A stretch of 37,039 nucleotides of DNA, taken from NCBI GenBank assembly GCA_003563985.1, contig PWSR01000120.1:1-37039 (forward strand), written 5' to 3'. How positions within the stretch are numbered: the stretch's first letter is position 1; every line of letters starts with the position of its first letter. The position numbers were made by a program, and so were the translations under genes. Shown piece by piece: positions 6,410-34,631 of this stretch. The DNA is from Clostridia bacterium. Its GTDB lineage: Bacteria; Bacillota; Sulfobacillia; SLMV01. Below the pieces are notes generated by a model. The model made no database searches. It saw nothing but the letters and a program-made list of their open reading frames with translations, and was not told where the DNA came from.

Positions 6410-7342
6410 ATGTTGAGCGCATCTCGCGTGAAGATTGTCTCGATCGTTCTGGCGACGGCCCTGGCATTTTCGTTGACGGCGTGCTCGGGTGCAGCCGATG
6501 GCGAGGATTCGGAATTTCCTACCCTCGACCTACAGGTCGCATCCTCGACCTTCTCCGAACCGTGGATTCTCAGCGAAATGGTCAAGATCTTCTTGGAGGA
6601 TTTGGGACACAACGTAGAGCACACCATCAACATTCAAGCCGACACTTCCCACGCCCTCATGTCCGCCGGCGAACTGGATTTCTACATGTCCTGGACCGGG
6701 ACCGAGTTCACCGGTCTCCTGGAGATGGACGTCACCGAGGAGTGGCGGGATCGGGAAAGGGTATTCGATTACGTCCACGAGCGTCTCGAGGAAGATTACG
6801 ACCGCACCTTGTTCCCGCCCCTGGGATTCAACAACACCTACGCCCTGGCGGTCCGACAGAGCTTCGCCGAAGAACACGGGCTGGAAAAGGCCAGTGATCT
6901 CATCGATATGGCCCCGGACCTGACGATCGGAACCGATACCACGTTCCAAGAGCGCAGCGGAGACGGTTTCGACGCGATGGCGGAGCACTATGGCTTCGAG
7001 TTCGGCGAAGTCACCGGTATGACCTACGGCATACTCTACCGAGCCGTAGCCAGCGGCGACGTGGACGTCAGCGTGGCCTACTCCACCGACGGGCGAATCC
7101 CCGCCATGGACCTGGTCATCCTCCAGGACGACCGGAACTTCTTCCCTCCCTACGATGGAGTCATCATCGGGAGGAATGAGACCCTGGAAGCCGACCCCCG
7201 CATCGCAGAGACTCTCTCCGTCATGTGGGGGGCCATAGATGAAGCGACCATGGCCCGCCTCAACGCCGAGGTCGACGTGGAAGAACGCGAGTTCGCAGAT
7301 GTCGCACGGGAATTCATGCAAGAAAACGGCTGGATCGAGTAA
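6410..7342 (+). CDS. Glycine betaine/choline-type substrate-binding lipoprotein, copy 2 (tandem paralogue)
   Basis: GGGAGGT RBS then ATG at 6410; LALAFSLTACSG-type lipobox; collinear with copy 1 throughout (FSEPWIL, SWTGTEF, EEWRDRE, FPPLGFNNTYA, VAYSTDGRIPAMDLVILQDDRNFFPPYDG). Confidence 0.88.
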   Translation: MLSASRVKIVSIVLATALAFSLTACSGAADGEDSEFPTLDLQVASSTFSEPWILSEMVKIFLEDLGHNVEHTINIQADTSHALMSAGELDFYMSWTGTEFTGLLEMDVTEEWRDRERVFDYVHERLEEDYDRTLFPPLGFNNTYALAVRQSFAEEHGLEKASDLIDMAPDLTIGTDTTFQERSGDGFDAMAEHYGFEFGEVTGMTYGILYRAVASGDVDVSVAYSTDGRIPAMDLVILQDDRNFFPPYDGVIIGRNETLEADPRIAETLSVMWGAIDEATMARLNAEVDVEEREFADVAREFMQENGWIE

Positions 7343-21260: not shown

Positions 21261-24200
21261 TCATTGAACCGATAGCGGCTCCAGGGTTTGGACCACCACG
21301 CTCGCGGCTCCACCCCGACGCCGTATCTCTCCTCGAACCGATAGCGGACCTTTGGCCCGGGGAAAGACCAGGTGACCGTATCGCCGATATGGGCCGGAGA
21401 ACAGTACCACATCAACCAAACCCGTTTCATCCTCCAGGGAAAAGAAAACGACCGTTTTCCCGCTTCGAGTCGGGGGCCTGTGCGGACATATGACCGTACC
21501 GGCTACGGCGACCTCCTCCCCTTCGGGCGCAGATCGAGCCTCGCGCGTCGTCACAAATCCCCTGTCGGTCAGCTCTTCCCGCTTGAGGCCCATCCAGCTG
21601 CCGCCGGCCTCGATACCCAGGATGCGCCTCTCCCAGACGATCTTCTCTTCGGGCGAAAAATCGGGGATATCCCGCGCAAACGACCCCACTCTTTTCCTTC
21701 GCCCCCCGGCGGTCAACATCCAAAGCAGGGAACGCCGATTCGGCTCCAGGGATGCCAGGGCACCGCACAGGATCAGGTTTTCCGCGAGATCCGCTCCGAT
21801 ATCGACCCGCCGCAGAAAATCCCCCGGGGAAGTGAAGAAACCATCGTCCCGGGCCCGGAGCAACCGATCCAGGGCTGCCCCTCCCATCCCCTTGACCTGG
21901 GCCAGGGATATCCGAATATTCCCTTCCTCGATGGTAAAGCGGGACCCGCTCGCATTGACATCCACCGGCAAGATCCCGATCCCCCGGCGCCGGACTTCGG
22001 TGCAGAGGGTATTGGGGGGATAGTAACCCATCGGCCAATTGCTCAGTACCGCGGCGAAAAACGCGGCCGGGTAATGCTGCGCGAGGTAGGCAGTACGATA
22101 GGCCGTGTTTCCGAAGGCCGCCGCGTGGGCTTCGCAGAATCCGTAGGATGCATAACCCCGGAGGTACGAATAGATCTGCTCCGCGATCTCCGCCCCGATA
22201 CCACGCTGGGCAGCCCGCTCGACGAAGAGGCGTCCCAATTCTTCCATCTCTACCCCGGGACGAGACCGACTCATGACCCGACGCAGGCGATCGGCCTCCC
22301 CCGGGCTGAACCCGGCGATCGCCACCGCGATCTCGATGACCTGCTCCTGGAAAAGCACGACCCCGTAAGTCTTGCGCAGTATCGGTTCCAAATCCGGGTG
22401 GATGTAAGTCACCGGCTCCGCCCCGTGGCGCCGGGCAATGTAGGGCTCCACCATATCACCCTTTATGGGGCCGGGGCGAATAAGAGCCACCGATGCGATG
22501 ATGTCCTCGAGATTTGAGGCACCCAGCCGAGATTGGAGCGCCCGCTGGGCCGGGCTCTCCAGTTGAAATACGCCCAGCGTCTCGCCGCGATGGAGCATGG
22601 CATAGGTTTCTTCGTCATCCTCGGGTATGGCCTGGTAATCGAAGGCGCGATCGCGGGTTCGAATATCCATCACGGCATCCTCCACGGCGGATAGCATTCG
22701 GAGCGATAGGAGGTCCAACTTGATCAACCCCAGTTCCTCTACGCCCTCCTTGTCGAATTGGCAAATCAATTCTCCCTTGGCGGAGCGCTGCAGCGGCGTG
22801 ACCTCCTCCAGGGGCCGATCGGAGATGACGAGTCCCCCGCAGTGGGTGGAAATGTGACGGGGAAATCCATCGACCGCCGCGGCGGCGGATAGCAGGCGTT
22901 CGTACCCCTCCCACCCCTCCGGATGGTTCCGGAATTCCGGCAGGATCTCCATAACCTCGGCGATATTGCCCGAACCGCTGCCCCGGGGGATCCGTTTGGC
23001 CAGGTCCCCCAGGACCTCGGGGCGAAATCCCATGGCCTTCCCCAGCTCCCGGACGGCCGAGCGGGCGCGAAAGGTATTGAAGGTGGCGACACCGGCCACG
23101 CGATTTTCCCCGTACTTCGCACGAACGTAATCCGCCACCCGGTCCCGATGACGGGCATCGAAGTCCACATCGATGTCGGGCTTTTCGCCGCGCTCTGGAC
23201 TCATAAACCGCTCGAACAATAGATTTCTCCCCAGGGCATCCACCTCGGTGATTCCCAGGCAATAGGCCACGGCCGAATCCGCCGCGGAACCCCTGCCGGC
23301 ACAACGAATCCCCCGCCCCCGGGCAAATCGGACGACATCCTCGACCAGGAGAAAGTAATCCGCATAGCCCTGGGATATGATCACATCCAGCTCTCGATCC
23401 AGGCGCTTGGCAACTTCACCGTCCGAATGACCGTACCGTTCCAGGGCACCTCGTCGCACCAGGTCCCGCAGGTGGTCCGCAGTCCCCACATCCCGGGGTA
23501 AGGCAAAGGTGGGATATCGCCTGCGGCCCAGGTCAGGAACCGGCTCGCAGGCCTCCGCGATGGCGAGCGTATTCCGTAGGGCATCCGGCAGGTGACGAAA
23601 ATGCCGGGTCATCGCCTCGGCTGATTTCAAGTAGTTCTCGGCATTCAGATGGCGTTCCGGGTTCGTCGCGGACAGGGTGGTGCCGGTGCGAACGCAGGTC
23701 AACAAGTCGTGGACGGGAAAGTCGGCCTTCCTCGCGTAGTGTACATCGGCCGAGGCCACCAGGGGGATGTCCAGTTCTTCACTCAATTCCACCAGGCTGC
23801 GGTGAAGGCCCAGGTCTCCCGGCAAAACGGCGGGTTGCAACTCCAAGTAAAGGGAGTCGCCCACCATCTCCCGGTAGAAAAGGGCCCTTTCCCGGGCTTC
23901 CCGGTAATGCCCGGATAATAGCAGGAAGGGGATCTCCCCCGCCCGACAACCCGACAGGACGAAGAGATCTTGCCCCATGCCAGCCAGCTCGGAGGGATCC
24001 AATCGGGGCCGGCCTCGCTCACCTCGTCGATGCGCCCGGGTCAACAACTTGCATATCCCGGCGTATCCCTCGGCGTTTCTGGCCAGGGCCACCAGGTGGT
24101 ATCCGCCCGGGAGGGTGAACTCCACCCCCTGGATCGGCTTGACCCCATATTTCTCGGCCGTCCGCCGAAAATCCACCGCTCCTCCCACGTTGTCATGGTC

Positions 24201-24317
24201 CGTCAGGGCTAGAGCCCTCATCTCCCCGGCGACTGCCCGTCGGACCAGCTCTCCGACGGAGCTTCCACCGTCGAGAAAAGAGTAGGGAGAATGGCAATGC
24301 AGGTGTACGAACTCCAC
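21261..24317 (-). CDS. dnaE2: DnaE2/ImuC-like error-prone DNA polymerase III alpha subunit
   Basis: PHP domain FVHLHCHSPYSFLDGGSS...LALTDHDNVGG; polymerase motif GEKPDIDVDFDARHRDRV; GSGNIAEVM; C-terminal OB fold VVFFSLEDETGLVDVVLF; 1018 aa; operon with ImuB-like gene. Confidence 0.85.
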   Translation of the reverse strand: MEFVHLHCHSPYSFLDGGSSVGELVRRAVAGEMRALALTDHDNVGGAVDFRRTAEKYGVKPIQGVEFTLPGGYHLVALARNAEGYAGICKLLTRAHRRGERGRPRLDPSELAGMGQDLFVLSGCRAGEIPFLLLSGHYREARERALFYREMVGDSLYLELQPAVLPGDLGLHRSLVELSEELDIPLVASADVHYARKADFPVHDLLTCVRTGTTLSATNPERHLNAENYLKSAEAMTRHFRHLPDALRNTLAIAEACEPVPDLGRRRYPTFALPRDVGTADHLRDLVRRGALERYGHSDGEVAKRLDRELDVIISQGYADYFLLVEDVVRFARGRGIRCAGRGSAADSAVAYCLGITEVDALGRNLLFERFMSPERGEKPDIDVDFDARHRDRVADYVRAKYGENRVAGVATFNTFRARSAVRELGKAMGFRPEVLGDLAKRIPRGSGSGNIAEVMEILPEFRNHPEGWEGYERLLSAAAAVDGFPRHISTHCGGLVISDRPLEEVTPLQRSAKGELICQFDKEGVEELGLIKLDLLSLRMLSAVEDAVMDIRTRDRAFDYQAIPEDDEETYAMLHRGETLGVFQLESPAQRALQSRLGASNLEDIIASVALIRPGPIKGDMVEPYIARRHGAEPVTYIHPDLEPILRKTYGVVLFQEQVIEIAVAIAGFSPGEADRLRRVMSRSRPGVEMEELGRLFVERAAQRGIGAEIAEQIYSYLRGYASYGFCEAHAAAFGNTAYRTAYLAQHYPAAFFAAVLSNWPMGYYPPNTLCTEVRRRGIGILPVDVNASGSRFTIEEGNIRISLAQVKGMGGAALDRLLRARDDGFFTSPGDFLRRVDIGADLAENLILCGALASLEPNRRSLLWMLTAGGRRKRVGSFARDIPDFSPEEKIVWERRILGIEAGGSWMGLKREELTDRGFVTTREARSAPEGEEVAVAGTVICPHRPPTRSGKTVVFFSLEDETGLVDVVLFSGPYRRYGHLVFPRAKGPLSVRGEIRRRGGAASVVVQTLEPLSVQ

Positions 24318-24330
24318 GGGAATTCCCCCG

Positions 24331-24588
24331 TCAATCGTAGATTCGATAAAGCACCCAGGGACCCGGACCCCGAACCTCCCGGCAAATCTCCACGAGACCG
24401 CCGCGGGCTATCCGGAGCCGATAGAACACCTTTTCTCGCTCCCCGGACCACCAACATCCCGTGTCTCGCCATCGTTCCTCGATGGCGACGATCTCAACCC
24501 ATACATCACCCAGGAGTACGGCCTCGGGAGTTCCCCGACATGATGTCCGGACACCCACCCTTCGATTCACCAATCGGCCCATTTCCAT
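24331..24588 (-). CDS. 85-aa small protein between imuB-like and dnaE2; resembles DUF6504-type proteins (from memory, low certainty)
   Basis: ATG at 24588 overlaps the imuB-like stop (TGATG). MEMGRLVNRRVGV...VEIVAIEERWRDTGCWWSGEREKVFYRLRIARGGLVEICREVRGPGPWVLYRIYD. 13 nt before dnaE2 start. Confidence 0.7.
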   Translation of the reverse strand: MEMGRLVNRRVGVRTSCRGTPEAVLLGDVWVEIVAIEERWRDTGCWWSGEREKVFYRLRIARGGLVEICREVRGPGPWVLYRIYD

Positions 24589-25790
24589 CACCTCCCCCGG
24601 AGCGGATCCCATAACTCCAGCATCCGCTCCCGGCGACAGGATCCCGCATCCTCGCCCCACCGGGCAATTTCACCCGGGAATTTTCGATCGAGGTCTTCTA
24701 CCAGTTCCGCCAGTATCTCCCGGCGATTCCGTTTCCCCCCGAGGATGGATACCTGCTCCAGTTCCCCGGGGCGCAACCCCGAAAACTCGATCCGGAAACG
24801 CTTTGGATACATTACGCCTCTGTCGTTCCAAAGGCGTCGCAGGGCGGATATCAAGGCCATCTGGCGTCGCCGGGGTCCGGAGAATTCCCTCTGTCCCCGC
24901 TCCCATCCGCCGTCTTCTCCGGACAACCAAAGGCTCATGCGCTTCGCCACTAGGGACTCGCGGTCCAGTTCCTCTGCGAGATCCCGGCAACACTGGACCA
25001 GGAATCCCTCGATGGCGGTGGACGTCCAATTCTCGACCTCTCCCTCGCGAACCCTTCTCGGGGGCGGATAGTTGCCGGTAACGATGGTACCGTCTCGCCC
25101 CCGGGCCCAACTGACCAATCGCCGTGCCCACCCCGGACCGAATCGCTCCCGCAGCAGCTCCTCGGAAATCCGGGCTACATCACCGAAGCGATCGAGCCCC
25201 AGGTGGGCGAGATCCCTGGAGATGTCCCCGGGGATCAATTGCGAAAAGGCGGGCGAGAGGGAAGCCAGGAGCCCCTCGCTTCCCTCCGCCCTTATCGCCA
25301 CCACCCGGGCCGCACGCCCCTCCAGGTGCCGAACCTCGCCGAACCCCCGCCCCGCAGCACCCAGGGCAACATCCGCCAAAACCTTTCCGGGCCCGTATCC
25401 GATGTGAAGGCTGTGCCCGAGATCCGGGGGGAGGCGGACCAGCAGTTCGCACACGAGGGCCAATGGATCCTCTCCCCGCGCCAGGTCGATCATCAGGTGA
25501 CCCGGCGATATCATCTCCACGCCGGGTGATACATCCGCCGCCGCCGCCGCGAAGATCTCCGCCCTCGGTCCATATCGGACGAGATCGCACTCCACCGCGC
25601 GGATACCGGGGCAGCGCATGGCGGCTTCCGACGATGATATACCGATCTCGATCCCCTCCCCGCGGGCGCGCGGACAAGTATCGACTACCGCGCCCTCCCG
25701 CAACACGATGGTTGGTCTGCACTCATCCCCGGGAACTCCGGCCTCCAGGGCGGCGAGCAGTCCCTCTAAAATGATTCCGAGCGCGGGCAT
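24588..25790 (-). CDS. imuB: ImuB-like Y-family DNA polymerase homologue, apparently lacking catalytic acidic residues
   Basis: Little-finger-like and HhH-like organisation (LGLDRFGDVARISEELLRERFG; PPPRRVREGEVENWTSTAIEGFLVQCCRDLAEEL). Motif I position reads ALGIILEGLLAALEAG and motif III reads ISPGHLMIDLA. ATG at 25790 with AGGGGG RBS. Confidence 0.78.
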   Translation of the reverse strand: MPALGIILEGLLAALEAGVPGDECRPTIVLREGAVVDTCPRARGEGIEIGISSSEAAMRCPGIRAVECDLVRYGPRAEIFAAAAADVSPGVEMISPGHLMIDLARGEDPLALVCELLVRLPPDLGHSLHIGYGPGKVLADVALGAAGRGFGEVRHLEGRAARVVAIRAEGSEGLLASLSPAFSQLIPGDISRDLAHLGLDRFGDVARISEELLRERFGPGWARRLVSWARGRDGTIVTGNYPPPRRVREGEVENWTSTAIEGFLVQCCRDLAEELDRESLVAKRMSLWLSGEDGGWERGQREFSGPRRRQMALISALRRLWNDRGVMYPKRFRIEFSGLRPGELEQVSILGGKRNRREILAELVEDLDRKFPGEIARWGEDAGSCRRERMLELWDPLRGR

Positions 25791-25807
25791 GATCCGACCC
25801 CCTAAAT

Positions 25808-25860
25808 CGAACATTTGTTCTGGTAGGAGCTATCATATTCCCCTCGCCCTCCGGAGTCAA
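25808..25860 (-). promoter_or_regulatory. SOS promoter: TTGACT-N17-TATGAT followed by LexA box AGAACAAATGTTCG
   Basis: Minus strand: -35 at 25860-25855, -10 at 25837-25832, LexA-box-like site at 25821-25808 (CGAAC-ATTT-GTTCT on +), 17 nt before the ATG at 25790. Confidence 0.82.
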
Positions 25861-27892: not shown

Positions 27893-30800
27893 TCAACAAC
27901 TCGAATCGCAGTGAAAGGCGAACCCACACCAGTGACAGCGGGCCCCGCGATGCTTCCGAAAATCCGCCTCGATCGCCGAGTCCTCGATGCTGCGGATCAA
28001 CTGCCGGGCGCGGGCGAATACGTCCTCTCCGCCCTCCTCGCCCGGGGGAAGGCGATGGTGGACACCGGGATGAAGGAAATGCAGGTACGCATCCGTTGCC
28101 GGATAGTAGCTCTTCCCGACCACCCCCAGGTATAGTTCCAACTGGAACCGATAGGATTCCGCCCGCTCGGCGATTCCCCCCGCGGAAACGCGATCGGTCT
28201 TGTAATCGACGACGCGCCAGTCCCCTTCTTCCGCCCGATAGAGGGCATCCACCACGCCGGAAATGTACCGATCCTCCAAACCCGGGACCTCCTCGAGGAA
28301 ACCCCATTCGCTGTACGCATCGCCCGAGCGGTGGGCGGTGCGAAACGCCCGGAAAAAGGTGCTCTCCGCGAAGACACGAACCAGTTCGAGCATCCGTCGA
28401 CGGACACCCGCCATGCCATCGGCTCCCTCCCAGAGGGCTGCCTCGCGCATGGCGGCGATGACCGCACCCTCCACGCTCTCCTCCAACAACAGCTCGCAGG
28501 CTCGATGGACCAGCGTACCGAAGCGCATGGGGTCCAGCGGGGAACGGTCGCGCCCGGGCGCCCCGGGATCGACCTCCGGGGCCAATTCGGGCCAGCCGAG
28601 TCGATGCCGCAGCAGGTAGAGACGGGGGCACTGCAGGTAATCGGTCAGGGCCGTCACGGAATACGTTTGCATGCCCGCCGGCTTCCCCGGGGGCAAGGGA
28701 TCCGGCAACCCGAGATCGGCCACCTTTCCGTAGTGGGCCAGCAGTTCCGCGGCATCTCCGGACGAACGATCCCGATCGCGGGGTGCCCCGGCGTTCTCCA
28801 ACCGCGCCAGGTCCAGGTGCGTCACCCGGATCGCCGGGGCGTGCTGCGGCTCCAACCCCGCGGCGTACCACCCGAAGTACGCGTTTTTCCCAAAGGCATC
28901 GACGGGGGGAATCCCGTCCTCCGCCGATTCCGGTTCCTCGCCGGCACCGCCCACCAGCACGAGCCGGCGTTCCGCGCGGGTGCAGGCGACGTAGAAAATC
29001 CGCATCTCCTCTTCGAGGCTCAGTTCCTTGTCCACGGCCGCCAGGTCCTCGAAGAAAGGGGCCGAATGATCCGGCAGATTCAATCCCAACCCGTGGGAAG
29101 CGTCCAGTACAAAGGATGTATTGGTGCGGGCCTGGGAGGAATCGGCGTCGGGAATGATCACCGTATCGAACTCCAAGCCCTTCGCTCGATGGATGGTGGA
29201 CAGTACCACCTCACCCTCGGGAATCGACCCGGCGGTCCCTTCATCCGCGGCGCCCACGCGAACCAGGGTGTCCAGGTGTCGGGCCAACTGCGCATAACCC
29301 GTTCCCTCTTCTCCTCCCATCTTCTCGGCCAGGGCGATGGCGCGGTCCAGGTTCAACCAGGCGTCTTCCGCCCAGGGATGCCCCGACAACACCTCGCGAT
29401 AGACGCTGTTCTCCAGCACGTGAACTAACAGCTCGTGGGGTGGCAGGAGCCGGCTCCAGGCCCTCCAGGTGGCGAGCGCAGACTGGCAGGCCACCAGCCG
29501 GTGATCCCGGGTTTCCGCGCCCAATGCACACAATCCATCCCAAAGGCTGCCCGCGGCCGCGTCCGATATTTCGAGTAAGATCTCGTCCTCCAGGGAGAAA
29601 AAGGGAGAACGAAGCACCGTGGCGAGGGAGATGTCGTCGGAGGCGTCGGCCAACCAGTGAAGAACGGCCTTGAGATCGGATACCTCCTCGGATTCGAAAA
29701 AACCGCGCCCTCCCGCGACTCGGTACGGGATCCCCCGGGCGGCCAGGGCCCGGCCACAGGGCTCCAGGGAGTTCCCCGATCGACCCAGGATGGCCACGTC
29801 CCCCGGGGATCCACCCGAGGACAGCCACGTCTCGATGCGATCCGCGATCACTTCCCCCTGGCGACGACGAAACTCGCCCCGATCCTTCCCCGTGGAAGGG
29901 CGGGCCAGCATCAGGAATTCTACCGACTGCCCTTCACTCGCCTCGGCCTCCGGGGCCGGCGACAGGGGTACGTACTCGGCGAAGCGCCGGGAAAAGACCG
30001 AGTTGGTCAGATTCACCAGGTCGGGTGCGCTGCGGAAGTTGGTGTCCAGGTGAACATCCTCGGCGCCCCCCCGCCGGAGTTGCTCCGCTGCGGAGCGGAA
30101 TATGCCGACATCGGCGCCCCGGAACCGGTAGATGGATTGATCGGCATCGCCGACCACGAAGACGCCGCCATCTCGCTCCGATCCGACGGGAGATTCCCCG
30201 CGGATGAGTTGAACGATTCTCCATTGGACTTCATCCGTATCCTGGAATTCATCCACGAGCAAGTGGCTGTATCTCCTCTGTAATCGGAGCAAGAACTCCG
30301 GGTGGGATTCCATGGTATTCAATGCCAGCTTCTGCAGATCATCGAAGTCCAGGACACCCCGACGCTCCTTTTCCGTCTCGTAGCGACGATCCATCTCCTC
30401 CACGGCGTGCAGAAACTCCCGGGTGGCGGCCCACTCCCGGCGAAGATCGGTCTTCCGACCGATGGCGTGGAGGGCACCCACCGGCTCCCGGTAATCCTTG
30501 GGGCAACTCTTGGTGGGCAGTGCCCGCCGCAGGTCTTCGAGGGCAGCCTCGGCGTCGCCCGCCTCGAACCGATGGCGAAGATCTCGCCATCGCCCGGCCA
30601 AGGCCTCCACCTTGGGTGGATACACCTTGGACCGGGAGGCCGCGCCGGCCCGGTGCAGTTCCAGTATCCGTTCGACGGTATCGATAACCTCCCGGGTGTC
30701 GCCAGAATCCAACCCTCCGGACGCCCAGGTGCCCGGGGTACCACCGATCCGGTAGTACATGTTCTCAATGGAATCCGATGTGACCCGGACCACGTCTCGC

Positions 30801-31408
30801 CAGCTCATCGTGTGCCGCATGGCGGCATCTCGAACCCGCTGCATCAGTTCCGTGGGAGAGGACCCGAATCGATTTCCGTGTCCCCGCCGATCCGCCATCT
30901 CCCGCAGATGCTCGGCGTCCCAGGGACCCAAGGCCTCGTCCAATACCTCCCGGGATATATCCTCCAGGATCAACCGGCGCTGATACGGATCGATGACGGC
31001 GAACTCCGGATCCAGTCCCGCCAGGTGCGGGTAATCGCGGAGCACGCTCTGGCAAAAACCGTGGATGGTCCCGAGGTATGATGCCTCGATTCGCCAAACC
31101 AGTGACCTCCAGTGGTTTGCCCCGTGGGCATCCCCATCATCACGGGCCGCGATCCATCGCGACGCCAGGCGATGGCGCAACCGCTCCTTCATCTCGGCGG
31201 CGGCGCGATTCGTGAAGGTGATGGCCGCGATTCGCTCGGGGGCGACCCCGGTGGCCAACAGGTGCTCCATCCGGCCGACCAGCACCCGGGTCTTGCCGCT
31301 ACCGGGGCCCGCACCGACGACGACGTCACCGGTTTGGCTCTCGATGGCCCGTCCCTGGGGCTCCGTCGGCTCCGGCAGTGCTCCGCCCGCGAAAGGATAT
31401 CTATTCAT
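27893..31408 (-). CDS. addA: AddA-like UvrD/REP-family helicase with C-terminal PD-(D/E)XK nuclease
   Basis: GAGPGSGKTRVLVGRM, AAITFTNRAAAEMKERL, LLVDEFQDTDEVQW, GDADQSIYRFRGAD, VVLSTIHRAKGLEFDTVII, IFYVACTRAERRLVLVGG; nuclease GVVDALYRAEEGDWRVVDYKTD; CHWCGFAFHC tail. ATG at 31408 overlaps the addB end. Confidence 0.9.
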   Translation of the reverse strand: MNRYPFAGGALPEPTEPQGRAIESQTGDVVVGAGPGSGKTRVLVGRMEHLLATGVAPERIAAITFTNRAAAEMKERLRHRLASRWIAARDDGDAHGANHWRSLVWRIEASYLGTIHGFCQSVLRDYPHLAGLDPEFAVIDPYQRRLILEDISREVLDEALGPWDAEHLREMADRRGHGNRFGSSPTELMQRVRDAAMRHTMSWRDVVRVTSDSIENMYYRIGGTPGTWASGGLDSGDTREVIDTVERILELHRAGAASRSKVYPPKVEALAGRWRDLRHRFEAGDAEAALEDLRRALPTKSCPKDYREPVGALHAIGRKTDLRREWAATREFLHAVEEMDRRYETEKERRGVLDFDDLQKLALNTMESHPEFLLRLQRRYSHLLVDEFQDTDEVQWRIVQLIRGESPVGSERDGGVFVVGDADQSIYRFRGADVGIFRSAAEQLRRGGAEDVHLDTNFRSAPDLVNLTNSVFSRRFAEYVPLSPAPEAEASEGQSVEFLMLARPSTGKDRGEFRRRQGEVIADRIETWLSSGGSPGDVAILGRSGNSLEPCGRALAARGIPYRVAGGRGFFESEEVSDLKAVLHWLADASDDISLATVLRSPFFSLEDEILLEISDAAAGSLWDGLCALGAETRDHRLVACQSALATWRAWSRLLPPHELLVHVLENSVYREVLSGHPWAEDAWLNLDRAIALAEKMGGEEGTGYAQLARHLDTLVRVGAADEGTAGSIPEGEVVLSTIHRAKGLEFDTVIIPDADSSQARTNTSFVLDASHGLGLNLPDHSAPFFEDLAAVDKELSLEEEMRIFYVACTRAERRLVLVGGAGEEPESAEDGIPPVDAFGKNAYFGWYAAGLEPQHAPAIRVTHLDLARLENAGAPRDRDRSSGDAAELLAHYGKVADLGLPDPLPPGKPAGMQTYSVTALTDYLQCPRLYLLRHRLGWPELAPEVDPGAPGRDRSPLDPMRFGTLVHRACELLLEESVEGAVIAAMREAALWEGADGMAGVRRRMLELVRVFAESTFFRAFRTAHRSGDAYSEWGFLEEVPGLEDRYISGVVDALYRAEEGDWRVVDYKTDRVSAGGIAERAESYRFQLELYLGVVGKSYYPATDAYLHFLHPGVHHRLPPGEEGGEDVFARARQLIRSIEDSAIEADFRKHRGARCHWCGFAFHCDSSC

Positions 31409-34400
31409 CGTTCGCCTCCTCCCCACGCGGCGCCCCGGGAACGTATTCCTTGTCGGCCATCCGATCCCGCGAGTACCGGCAAAGGCCCGGGTACGGACAA
31501 TATTCGCAGTCCCCTGAATCAAAGGGGAACATGGGGAATCGACCCTCGTTCATGCCGCGCCAGGATCTCAAGATGTGTCGGGCCGCCGCCGCCAGGAGGG
31601 CATCCATATCCGGGATCGCCCGGGATTCCGGCAATCCGAGGATGGGCAATGCCTCGGGCCGATAGATACCCCGCTCCCAGTTCGCCCCCGAAACGCTGAT
31701 ATACCCCCCGCCCAGCAGGTCCTTGTCCGGGTTCTCGATCCCGGCTGCCATGAGGTACAGGGGCATCTGGGCATCGCCACCCCGCTCGGCCGTATCGGCC
31801 TTGGGGGGATTCGTCCCCAGCTTGTAGTCGAATACCATCAGGCGATCGCGCTCCTCTCCCCCGGGATTCTCCCAGATGTCCAGTCGGTCGATCGTTCCCG
31901 AGATCTTTACATCTTCTCGAACTGCCACCCCGGCTTCACCGAGCAATCGACCCAGGGGATGCTCGAAGCGGTGTTCCAACCGATAGGGTTGCATATCCCT
32001 TCCCGGCACCCGTGAACGACGTTCGTCCTCGGCTTCGAGGAGGTCGCCCAGGGTGGATATTGCACGCCTCGCAACGGACTCCCACCACACGTCGCCGATC
32101 CACCCCAAACCCTCGCGAAGTTCCGCCAACGCCTCTTCCAGGATCTCCTCTAGGATCTCGCGGCGGGCGCCGAAGCGGGTATCATCTCCTTCTCCCAGGG
32201 CCAATAGCGGGATCAGATCGCGATAGTATCTCTCCAAGACGCGATGGTACAGCTGGCCCGCGCGGTGGGCCGCCAGGGATTCCTCGGGGCGAAAGCCATC
32301 ATCGAGTCCAAGGATGTGGGACGCGAAAAAGCGATAGGGACAACGGCCGTAGGCATCCAATCCCGTGACGGCCAAGCGCCCCCGCCGGGCCAGGTAGGAT
32401 GCCACCTTCGACGTCGCGGATTGTCCCAGGATGCCGTCCCAGGGACCGAATTCGCGGGACCAGCGGGCGGACTCGGCGGCGGTGGCGCGCGCCAACTCCC
32501 GGGCACCGGGGTTCGGTAGGGAGCGGATGGAGGGACCGGGAAACCTCTCGCGTCGCCCGCGTTCCAGGGTTTCTCCGGCCAACTCCAGCGTCTCCTCCAG
32601 CAAACCATTATGTCCCCGCACCGCTCCCAAGAGGCGGAGTCGCATCCGGGTCCACGTTCCCGGGGTTCGATCCCGGTCCCGGGACCCGGTGAGGTCTTCG
32701 TACGACTCCGGGTTCTCCATGGCCAACTCTTGGAGGTAGGGGGACACCGTCGTAGTTCTCCCGTCACTCTTGGCCGAATGGATGAGGAGTAGATCGGCCT
32801 CGCAGGCGCGGACCGCCCGGTAGAACCGGCGATTCTGCTCCCGGTAGGATTCCGCATCCGGCGGGTGATCACGCACCAATCGACCGATCCACGAAGACGC
32901 CACCGGACCCGGGTAGGTTCCGGCCGAGATATCGGGCATGGCCACGATTTGATAGGTCTCCCCGGATAATTCCTCGGGCAATGCCAGTCGAACACCCCTG
33001 CCAGCCCCCGGACGTCTATCCAGGAGATCGGGCGTCGCGGGCTCTCCCACGAGAACGCCGGCGAGCATTTCCTCGAAGGCGGCGGAGAAGATCGTTCGAG
33101 AGCACCGGGGATCGGTCTGGCCGAACAATCCACCGAGGGACAGGCGCAAGCCATCGGACATCTTGCGCCAGGCATCCAGATCCCGGAGGGTATCCACCCC
33201 GTATCCCCCGTCGGATTCCAGGACCTCCCGGATGCCCCGGGGCACCCCCAGGGTGTCCAATGCCCGGAGGAAGCCGTCGACCAACGGCTGGCTTCCCCTC
33301 TCGGGCACGCCATCCAGGATGCGATTCAAATCCGAGAGGGCGCCTTCCATGGCGGATATCTCGTCGATCCATCCGCCGAGGGTACCCGTGGATTCCCAGG
33401 CGATGGCCCCGGAACCACCCGTACGGGCCCGAAGGGATCGCTTCACCGTGGCCAGGTGTTCCCGGATGTCCTCGCCTTCCAGCTGGGGCGGCACGAAACG
33501 CGTTAAACGAAGCAGTCGTTCCCACTCCCCCAGGTACGGACCCGAAACCAGGTCGACCAGGTTCTCCGCCGAGGGGGACTCCAGCACCCGCAGGAGGGCC
33601 CGGGCCACCCGTCCCGGCCCGGTCTCGCCCAGGGTGACGGCTGGAGCGGTATCCACGGGAACGCCGGCCCGAACGAGTTGCTTCGCTCCCATCCGAAGGC
33701 GAGCGGAAGAAGAATAGACCACGCAACAGCGGTGGACGGGCGTACCGCCCCGGATCTCCTCCTTGATTCGCGCCGCCAGTTCTTCGACACCCTCTGCATC
33801 ATCGGACACGCGAAAGGCGCTGGTTCGGGGTCCCGTGGTGGGATCCCACCCCGCGGGGTGAAATATGCGCGCGGCGAGTCCCGAGCGGTTCCGGTCGGGA
33901 TCGTAGGCGACGACGTGGGATTCCAAATCTCCCAGGTCCCGTTTCAATTCATCGGTGGTCGGGAAGAGATCGGGACGCTCTCCGTCCCACGCCAGCAGCA
34001 ACAGCGGGTCTCGGGACCGGCAGAAGGCAGCGGTAAGCAATTCGATCGTGGGTTGATCCAGGTGCCAGAATCCCTCCACGGTAAAACGATCCCAGAGGAA
34101 TCCTTCGTCCTCGCCTTCCCGCAACGCCCGGGCTAGCACGTGAAATAGGCGCGGGCCGTCGGCCAAATCGTATTCGGCGAGGAGATCCTCGTACGCGACG
34201 AGCAGGGCCCGGAGTTCCCCGGGGAGGTCTCCCGCATCCGCCAATTCGCCCTCGCGGGTTTCCCTGACGAATCGCGCCAAGGACTCGGCCGTTCCCCGGC
34301 GTCCCCAGATTCCGGCGAGCCCACCCGACGGGGAGGGTTCAATTCGAGCCACCAGTGCGCGGATGAGGGCGTTCTGTTCCCATCCCTGTAGACGCCGGAG

Positions 34401-34631
34401 CCCGATCCCCATCCGGATGGCCAGTTCTCCGATCCATCCACCCATCATCTTCACGGGAATCCGATCTCCGCCCGGTGAGCCGGTCCGTTCCATGTGCATC
34501 CTTCGGCGTTGAATCATGAGATTGCGGTCGGCCACGAGGTAGAGATCCCGGGGGGAGCCTTCATCCCCCCGTGCGCTACCGCCGAGACGCGCTCCGGCCA
34601 ATGCCTTCGCATCGAGATCCGTCGTTTTCAC
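31401..34631 (-). CDS. addB: AddB-like helicase-nuclease subunit with Fe-S-type nuclease domain
   Basis: 1076 aa; DAYGRCPYRFFASHIL; GTIDRLDIWENPGGEERDRLMVFDYKLG; CEYCPYPGLC near the C-terminus; coupled to addA. No Walker A recognised at the N-terminus. Confidence 0.85.
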   Translation of the reverse strand: MKTTDLDAKALAGARLGGSARGDEGSPRDLYLVADRNLMIQRRRMHMERTGSPGGDRIPVKMMGGWIGELAIRMGIGLRRLQGWEQNALIRALVARIEPSPSGGLAGIWGRRGTAESLARFVRETREGELADAGDLPGELRALLVAYEDLLAEYDLADGPRLFHVLARALREGEDEGFLWDRFTVEGFWHLDQPTIELLTAAFCRSRDPLLLLAWDGERPDLFPTTDELKRDLGDLESHVVAYDPDRNRSGLAARIFHPAGWDPTTGPRTSAFRVSDDAEGVEELAARIKEEIRGGTPVHRCCVVYSSSARLRMGAKQLVRAGVPVDTAPAVTLGETGPGRVARALLRVLESPSAENLVDLVSGPYLGEWERLLRLTRFVPPQLEGEDIREHLATVKRSLRARTGGSGAIAWESTGTLGGWIDEISAMEGALSDLNRILDGVPERGSQPLVDGFLRALDTLGVPRGIREVLESDGGYGVDTLRDLDAWRKMSDGLRLSLGGLFGQTDPRCSRTIFSAAFEEMLAGVLVGEPATPDLLDRRPGAGRGVRLALPEELSGETYQIVAMPDISAGTYPGPVASSWIGRLVRDHPPDAESYREQNRRFYRAVRACEADLLLIHSAKSDGRTTTVSPYLQELAMENPESYEDLTGSRDRDRTPGTWTRMRLRLLGAVRGHNGLLEETLELAGETLERGRRERFPGPSIRSLPNPGARELARATAAESARWSREFGPWDGILGQSATSKVASYLARRGRLAVTGLDAYGRCPYRFFASHILGLDDGFRPEESLAAHRAGQLYHRVLERYYRDLIPLLALGEGDDTRFGARREILEEILEEALAELREGLGWIGDVWWESVARRAISTLGDLLEAEDERRSRVPGRDMQPYRLEHRFEHPLGRLLGEAGVAVREDVKISGTIDRLDIWENPGGEERDRLMVFDYKLGTNPPKADTAERGGDAQMPLYLMAAGIENPDKDLLGGGYISVSGANWERGIYRPEALPILGLPESRAIPDMDALLAAAARHILRSWRGMNEGRFPMFPFDSGDCEYCPYPGLCRYSRDRMADKEYVPGAPRGEEANDE

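Follow-up and report, generated by a model that had tools for sequence, protein, structure and literature searches.

A small protein encoded between a Y-family polymerase gene and dnaE2 in a Sulfobacillia genome is a predicted standalone ImuB-C (DUF6504) domain

The analysed stretch of DNA, called the window below, comprises 37,039 nucleotides of contig PWSR01000120.1 of a Clostridia bacterium from the class Sulfobacillia. The first-pass annotation had placed an ORF of 85 aa between an imuB-like gene and dnaE2, and this ORF was found there, on the minus strand, which had not been given. In the following, the small protein is designated W, its Y-family neighbour Y and the DnaE2 protein E. The cassette contains these features:

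25832–25860, minus strand: sigma-A type promoter TTGACT-17-TATGAT (mean of 0.0 in shuffles of the region)
25809–25820, palindromic: LexA-type SOS box GAACAAATGTTC (operon strand), upstream of Y, conserved
24588–25814, minus strand: Y, predicted inactive Y-family polymerase (Pfam IMS/IMS_C), equivalent to ImuB minus its C-terminal domain
24741–24755, minus strand: clamp-binding-like motif QVSIL of the Q-x-x-L type in the Y tail (Q in 71 of 95 relatives)
24654–24722, minus strand: RecA-NT-like motif of Y (REILAELVEDLDRKFPGEIARWG), aligned by hhalign to the RecA N-terminus, helix 364–378 in the model
24331–24588, minus strand: W, predicted standalone ImuB-C/DUF6504 protein, 85 aa, alternative start at 24582
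21261–24317, minus strand: dnaE2, error-prone C-family polymerase of 1018 aa, grouping with reference DnaE2s
23739–24305, minus strand: PHP stretch of DnaE2 with all nine metal-ligand positions (intact HHDHEHCDH)

The W frame runs from the ATG at 24588 to the stop at 24331 and includes exactly the peptide quoted in the first-pass annotation. The stop codon of the ImuB-like gene (TGA, 24590–24588) shares one base with this ATG (TGATG), and 13 bases separate the W stop from the GTG of dnaE2 at 24317. A ribosome-binding site, GGGGAGG, lies 5' of W; as the ATG at 24582 stands at a more favourable distance from this site, translation may start six bases further in.

In a single-sequence search (E ≤ 0.01), homologues of W were detected in 121 of the 151 genomes of the class. 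A single tryptophan, a WW pair and an arginine are shared by the 101 aligned copies without exception, and 95 of these copies end in aspartate. The conserved-residue test gave tryptophan in 95/101, arginine in 101/101 and arginine or lysine in 96/101 copies. Moreover, same-genus copies, which are 54–60% identical, keep the frame intact. W is short, overlaps the neighbouring gene and, taken alone, scores under the Pfam cut-off, all of which would suit a non-coding or degenerate ORF kept through chance overlap. Against this stand the 101 copies with invariant residues and intact frames and the confident predicted fold of W, so that this explanation is refuted by conservation and keeps a negligible probability. 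The wide distribution of homologues, the invariant residues and the intact same-genus frames thus confirm, at the sequence level, that W is not a chance ORF.

The resemblance to DUF6504, put forward in the first-pass annotation, was correct. W of the window matches Pfam DUF6504 (PF20114) with 16.9 bits (E 0.0076), which is divergent and below the gathering score of 24.2 bits, a curation threshold and not a biological feature. The same profile matches 40 of 41 diverse members of the W family (E ≤ 0.01), and a copy above the cut-off occurs in 20 of 31 relative genomes, mostly the copy in the operon of W. The W alignment also matched the C-terminal tails of ImuB (hhalign 95.2%, E 2.6e-8, 76 columns), and a profile search with W found ImuB C-termini. 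In the opposite direction, the Pfam model matches residues 428–501 of a 504-aa Rhizobium ImuB (E 8e-5), and a weak DUF6504 match lies at the extreme C-terminus of three of the five canonical ImuBs scanned in plasmid records. In Thermus brockianus, a fusion protein of 443 aa is PolY-like at residues 17–344 (E 6e-28) and W-like at residues 380–443 (E 4e-10), and its gene is flanked by those of an S24 peptidase and dnaE. Since the W profile matches the ImuB C-terminus and the domain is fused to PolY in Thermus brockianus, W is, by homology, a standalone ImuB-C, the tail domain that ImuB bears elsewhere.

The ImuB-C domain was named by Aravind et al. 2013 (PMC3765255). It has in common with W a length of about 80 residues, an all-beta make-up, a conserved C-terminal tryptophan, basic residues and no catalytic pattern. 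It mostly forms the tail of ImuB, whereas W is a separate gene; the W-type domain is found beside mutagenic polymerase genes or, in Thermus brockianus, fused. The earlier statement that the function is undescribed holds only in part, as predictions have been published under the name ImuB-C (PMC3765255, PMC6511836, PMC12926913). In the literature we found no experiment on the standalone protein, except for the DNA-damage induction of a Geobacter operon that holds a standalone ImuB-C (as cited in PMC6511836). The link between DUF6504 and ImuB-C appears to be new. The name DUF6504 is absent from the main texts of the module papers.

The AlphaFold model of W consists of seven strands and no helix (mean pLDDT 88.7), which bears out the small beta-rich module expected from the sequence pattern. 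A search of PDB sequences with the W profile gave no match, and Foldseek with the W model gave a best E of 0.6 and no convincing solved relative, which agrees with the report that ImuB-C has no close relative in the PDB (PMC12926913). A cystatin-like fold was considered and rejected: the best VIA-align hit, to the cystatin-like Adhirons (Z 6.3), does not rise above what common arrangements give. We therefore claim no fold relation for W and make no case for either an SH3-like or a novel fold.

The label imuB-like given earlier to Y is right as to the Y-family (Pfam IMS/IMS_C), but the ImuB C-terminal domain is absent from Y, being the 85-aa protein itself. A profile comparison with solved Pol IV (HVDMDAFF, DEAYLD) showed that Y lacks both catalytic acidic motifs in the window and in relatives, by which it is predicted to be catalytically dead. 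In seven loci (L161, L163, L182 and L186–L189), Y is without about the first 80 profile residues, the region that bears the first catalytic motif. The AlphaFold model of Y has a Y-family-like order of elements and a tail helix at 364–378. Within the tail, the clamp-like motif is followed by the RecA-NT-like segment, which scored 17.6 in hhalign against the RecA N-terminus (best of 100 column-shuffled controls, 14.4); this match is short, with an hhalign probability of only 20%. RecA is present in the genome, and a search of this draft (91% complete) with an ImuA profile returned only a frame of RecA length, 343 aa, below the cut-off.

The phylogenetic tree of E places it, with a node support of 1.0, with nine of the ten references taken from plasmids (the exception resembles E. 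coli DnaE1) and leaves the DnaE1s of the class outside. The genome carries a separate DnaE1, and a search of eight genomes of the host family turned up no PolC. The window shares its complete set of nine PHP positions with a same-genus relative and with Alicyclobacillus; most sisters deviate from it at the catalytic aspartate alone. Among 77 loci of the class, 12 (window included) have intact ligands and 44 differ by one D-to-N change only, whereas the plasmid-borne reference DnaE2s partnered with ImuA/ImuB have lost most ligand positions. The commonest D-to-N change aligns with D226 of M. tuberculosis DnaE1, where D226N abolishes the exonuclease (PMC5636811). According to the 2026 survey, the PHP sites of DnaE2 are substituted with few exceptions (PMC12926913). 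A DnaE2 with a predicted intact or near-intact PHP exonuclease site is apparently a new detail. The PHP site in a row of genes on a Thermomicrobium roseum plasmid (RecA-like gene, PolY-like gene with a faint WW-containing tail, dnaE2; L149:1703–7168) reads EHDHEHCNH.

The SOS box lies just downstream of the consensus promoter and ahead of Y. The palindrome by itself is not significantly rare in the window, so the argument for the box is built on position and conservation: 70 of 92 relatives have a box upstream of Y, compared with 0.5% of the control segments drawn from these loci. The consensus of the boxes upstream of Y in relatives is close to CGAACANATGTTCG, which we take to be the Gram-positive type of LexA box. 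The genome encodes LexA, which was present in 20 of the 21 genomes searched. The Y frame opens at the ATG at 25814, which lies inside the box; as the box covers this first ATG, translation probably starts at the ATG at 25790. Another palindrome of the type GAACN4GTTC is located inside an ORF at 7283–7294 of the window, two per window being within chance. Elsewhere in the window, two large overlapping genes occupy 27893–34631 (minus strand); the product of the first combines a UvrD-type helicase and a PD-(D/E)XK nuclease domain, and the pair looks like AddA/AddB.

The linkage of the three genes was assessed in 101 loci (the window and 100 W hits with up to about 10 kb around each). As these were picked by W alone, linkage to Y and E was not built in. 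By profile search, 98/101 loci have Y and 89/101 have E on the strand of W, several misses being contig ends, and the association with Y-family and dnaE2 genes noted before is thereby upheld. The order in the loci of the class is Y-W-E with mostly short gaps. W and Y occupy separate reading frames in all class loci with both, and a fusion was never seen; Y-W fusions suggested by long open frames around W were discarded, as PolY was in another frame each time. In three loci of one family (L114, L116 and L126), Y and W are present without an adjacent dnaE2, a DnaE2-type gene lying elsewhere, and the C-terminus of W is altered and extended.

A DnaE2 search of the 151 genomes, in which DnaE2-type genes were told from lower-scoring DnaE1 by identity and score, identified a DnaE2-type gene in 11 genomes in which W had not been detected. 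Five of these 11 carry a divergent W, missed by the first search, directly upstream of dnaE2, and both W and DnaE2 are absent from about 19 genomes, so that W tracks DnaE2 across the class. The link between the three parts is not absolute, because six genomes have a DnaE2-type gene with no W detected nearby, and a plasmid of Thermaerobacter sp. FW80 carries a lone W, annotated as DUF6504, among toxin-antitoxin and transposase genes without polymerase neighbours (L217:4914–5165).

The Y-W-E order also occurs in Candidatus Manganitrophus and Alicyclobacillus, and Deinococcus aetherius has the order lexA-polY-DUF6504-dnaE, with a DUF6504 gene annotated in the record between polY and dnaE. On the Candidatus Manganitrophus plasmid (CP114554.1), an 85-aa W-like protein undetected by Pfam (L155:3691–3948) is encoded between polY and dnaE2. 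Upstream of polY on this plasmid (L155:1456–2460), an S24 (LexA/UmuD-like) peptidase is fused to a RecA-like domain, which may represent a repressor and ImuA joined in a single polypeptide. At L131:1444–2343 and L132:1393–1938, DUF6504 was matched a second time and more strongly (66 bits), within longer proteins that adjoin amidohydrolase/L,D-transpeptidase or tRNA synthetase genes and not polymerases. None of the phage records carries a W protein. For the contig scan, the 41-row W alignment was too variable and ten closer rows were used instead; with the PolY protein of the window as the query, the scan found no relative.

A module of inactive PolY, ImuB-C, DnaE2 and RecA was proposed in 2019 by Timinskas and Venclovas, with Kyrpidia tusciae as its type and a polymerase called DnaE2X (PMC6511836). 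The window cassette fits this module, and its layout had already been predicted: three genes, a dead PolY with a RecA-NT motif, RecA present and ImuA not found are shared, and no difference in composition was found. The W profile also retrieved loci of Alicyclobacillus, from the family of Kyrpidia. To this the present analysis adds the occurrence of the cassette across the class, its SOS box and the state of the PHP site; a predicted SOS-controlled cassette found class-wide in Firmicutes is apparently a new detail. With the ImuA-ImuB-DnaE2 mutasome (e.g., of Mycobacterium and Caulobacter), the cassette shares building blocks and SOS control; it differs from this canonical form in that ImuB is split into two genes, PolY and ImuB-C, in that ImuA was not found and in that the PHP site is intact or nearly so.

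We consider it likely that W is the standalone ImuB-C (DUF6504) subunit of a damage-induced split-ImuB mutasome, which docks DnaE2 for translesion synthesis. From what was computed here (ImuB-C homology, the arrangement of the operon, the lost catalytic acids, the motifs, the SOS box and the finding of RecA and LexA in the genome), we infer induction, physical contacts and a mutagenic outcome. DNA damage would activate RecA and lead to cleavage of LexA, which would release the operon of inactive PolY, ImuB-C and dnaE2. The dead PolY would serve as a platform that holds the sliding clamp via its Q-motif and RecA via the RecA-NT-like motif. The beta-domain of W would complete the ImuB equivalent and dock DnaE2, most likely on the PHP domain, a contact taken from the AlphaFold models of ImuB complexes by Timinskas et al. 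2026, in which ImuB-C contacts this domain of DnaE2 (PMC12926913). The docked DnaE2 would then carry out translesion synthesis at the stalled fork.

Aravind et al. 2013 proposed for ImuB-C, from its small all-beta make-up and its contexts with several repair systems, a DNA-binding domain that senses damaged DNA and guides polymerases there (PMC3765255). The conserved tryptophan and arginine of W and its one lone copy away from polymerases would agree with such a role. The net charge (+0.4 as the family mean, +3 in the window, about 0 in the ImuB tails checked) is, however, atypical of a DNA binder, the close genetic association with a single pair of polymerases speaks rather for a protein–protein role, and the published models place ImuB-C on the PHP domain of DnaE2 (PMC12926913); we therefore regard DNA sensing as rather unlikely. 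Somewhat less probable still is that W regulates and does not bridge, sitting on the PHP site of DnaE2 where it would control exonuclease or fidelity, or hold the polymerase inactive until RecA and PolY arrive. The ligands of its partner DnaE2, intact (12/77) or one D-to-N off (44/77), unlike those of ImuA/ImuB-partnered references, speak for this, but the commonest change, aligned to D226, kills the exonuclease in M. tuberculosis DnaE1 (PMC5636811), and W is retained even where the PHP site is degenerate. That E is a translesion polymerase with working PHP proofreading, whose fidelity is switched by ImuB-C docked on the PHP domain, is a similarly long shot; if true, PHP-docked ImuB-C would give a mutasome of adjustable mutagenicity.

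Under the preferred reading of W as the docking subunit of a split-ImuB mutasome, DUF6504 gains a name and a likely role through its identification with ImuB-C. With ImuB split, the contact of ImuB-C with DnaE2 becomes easy to probe using separate proteins, and the PHP sites, intact or nearly so, offer a natural variant series for testing proofreading by a translesion DnaE2. The split-ImuB module, described as "small" in the published survey, proves to be the usual DnaE2 cassette of a mostly uncultured class of Firmicutes, where it bears LexA-type control sites.
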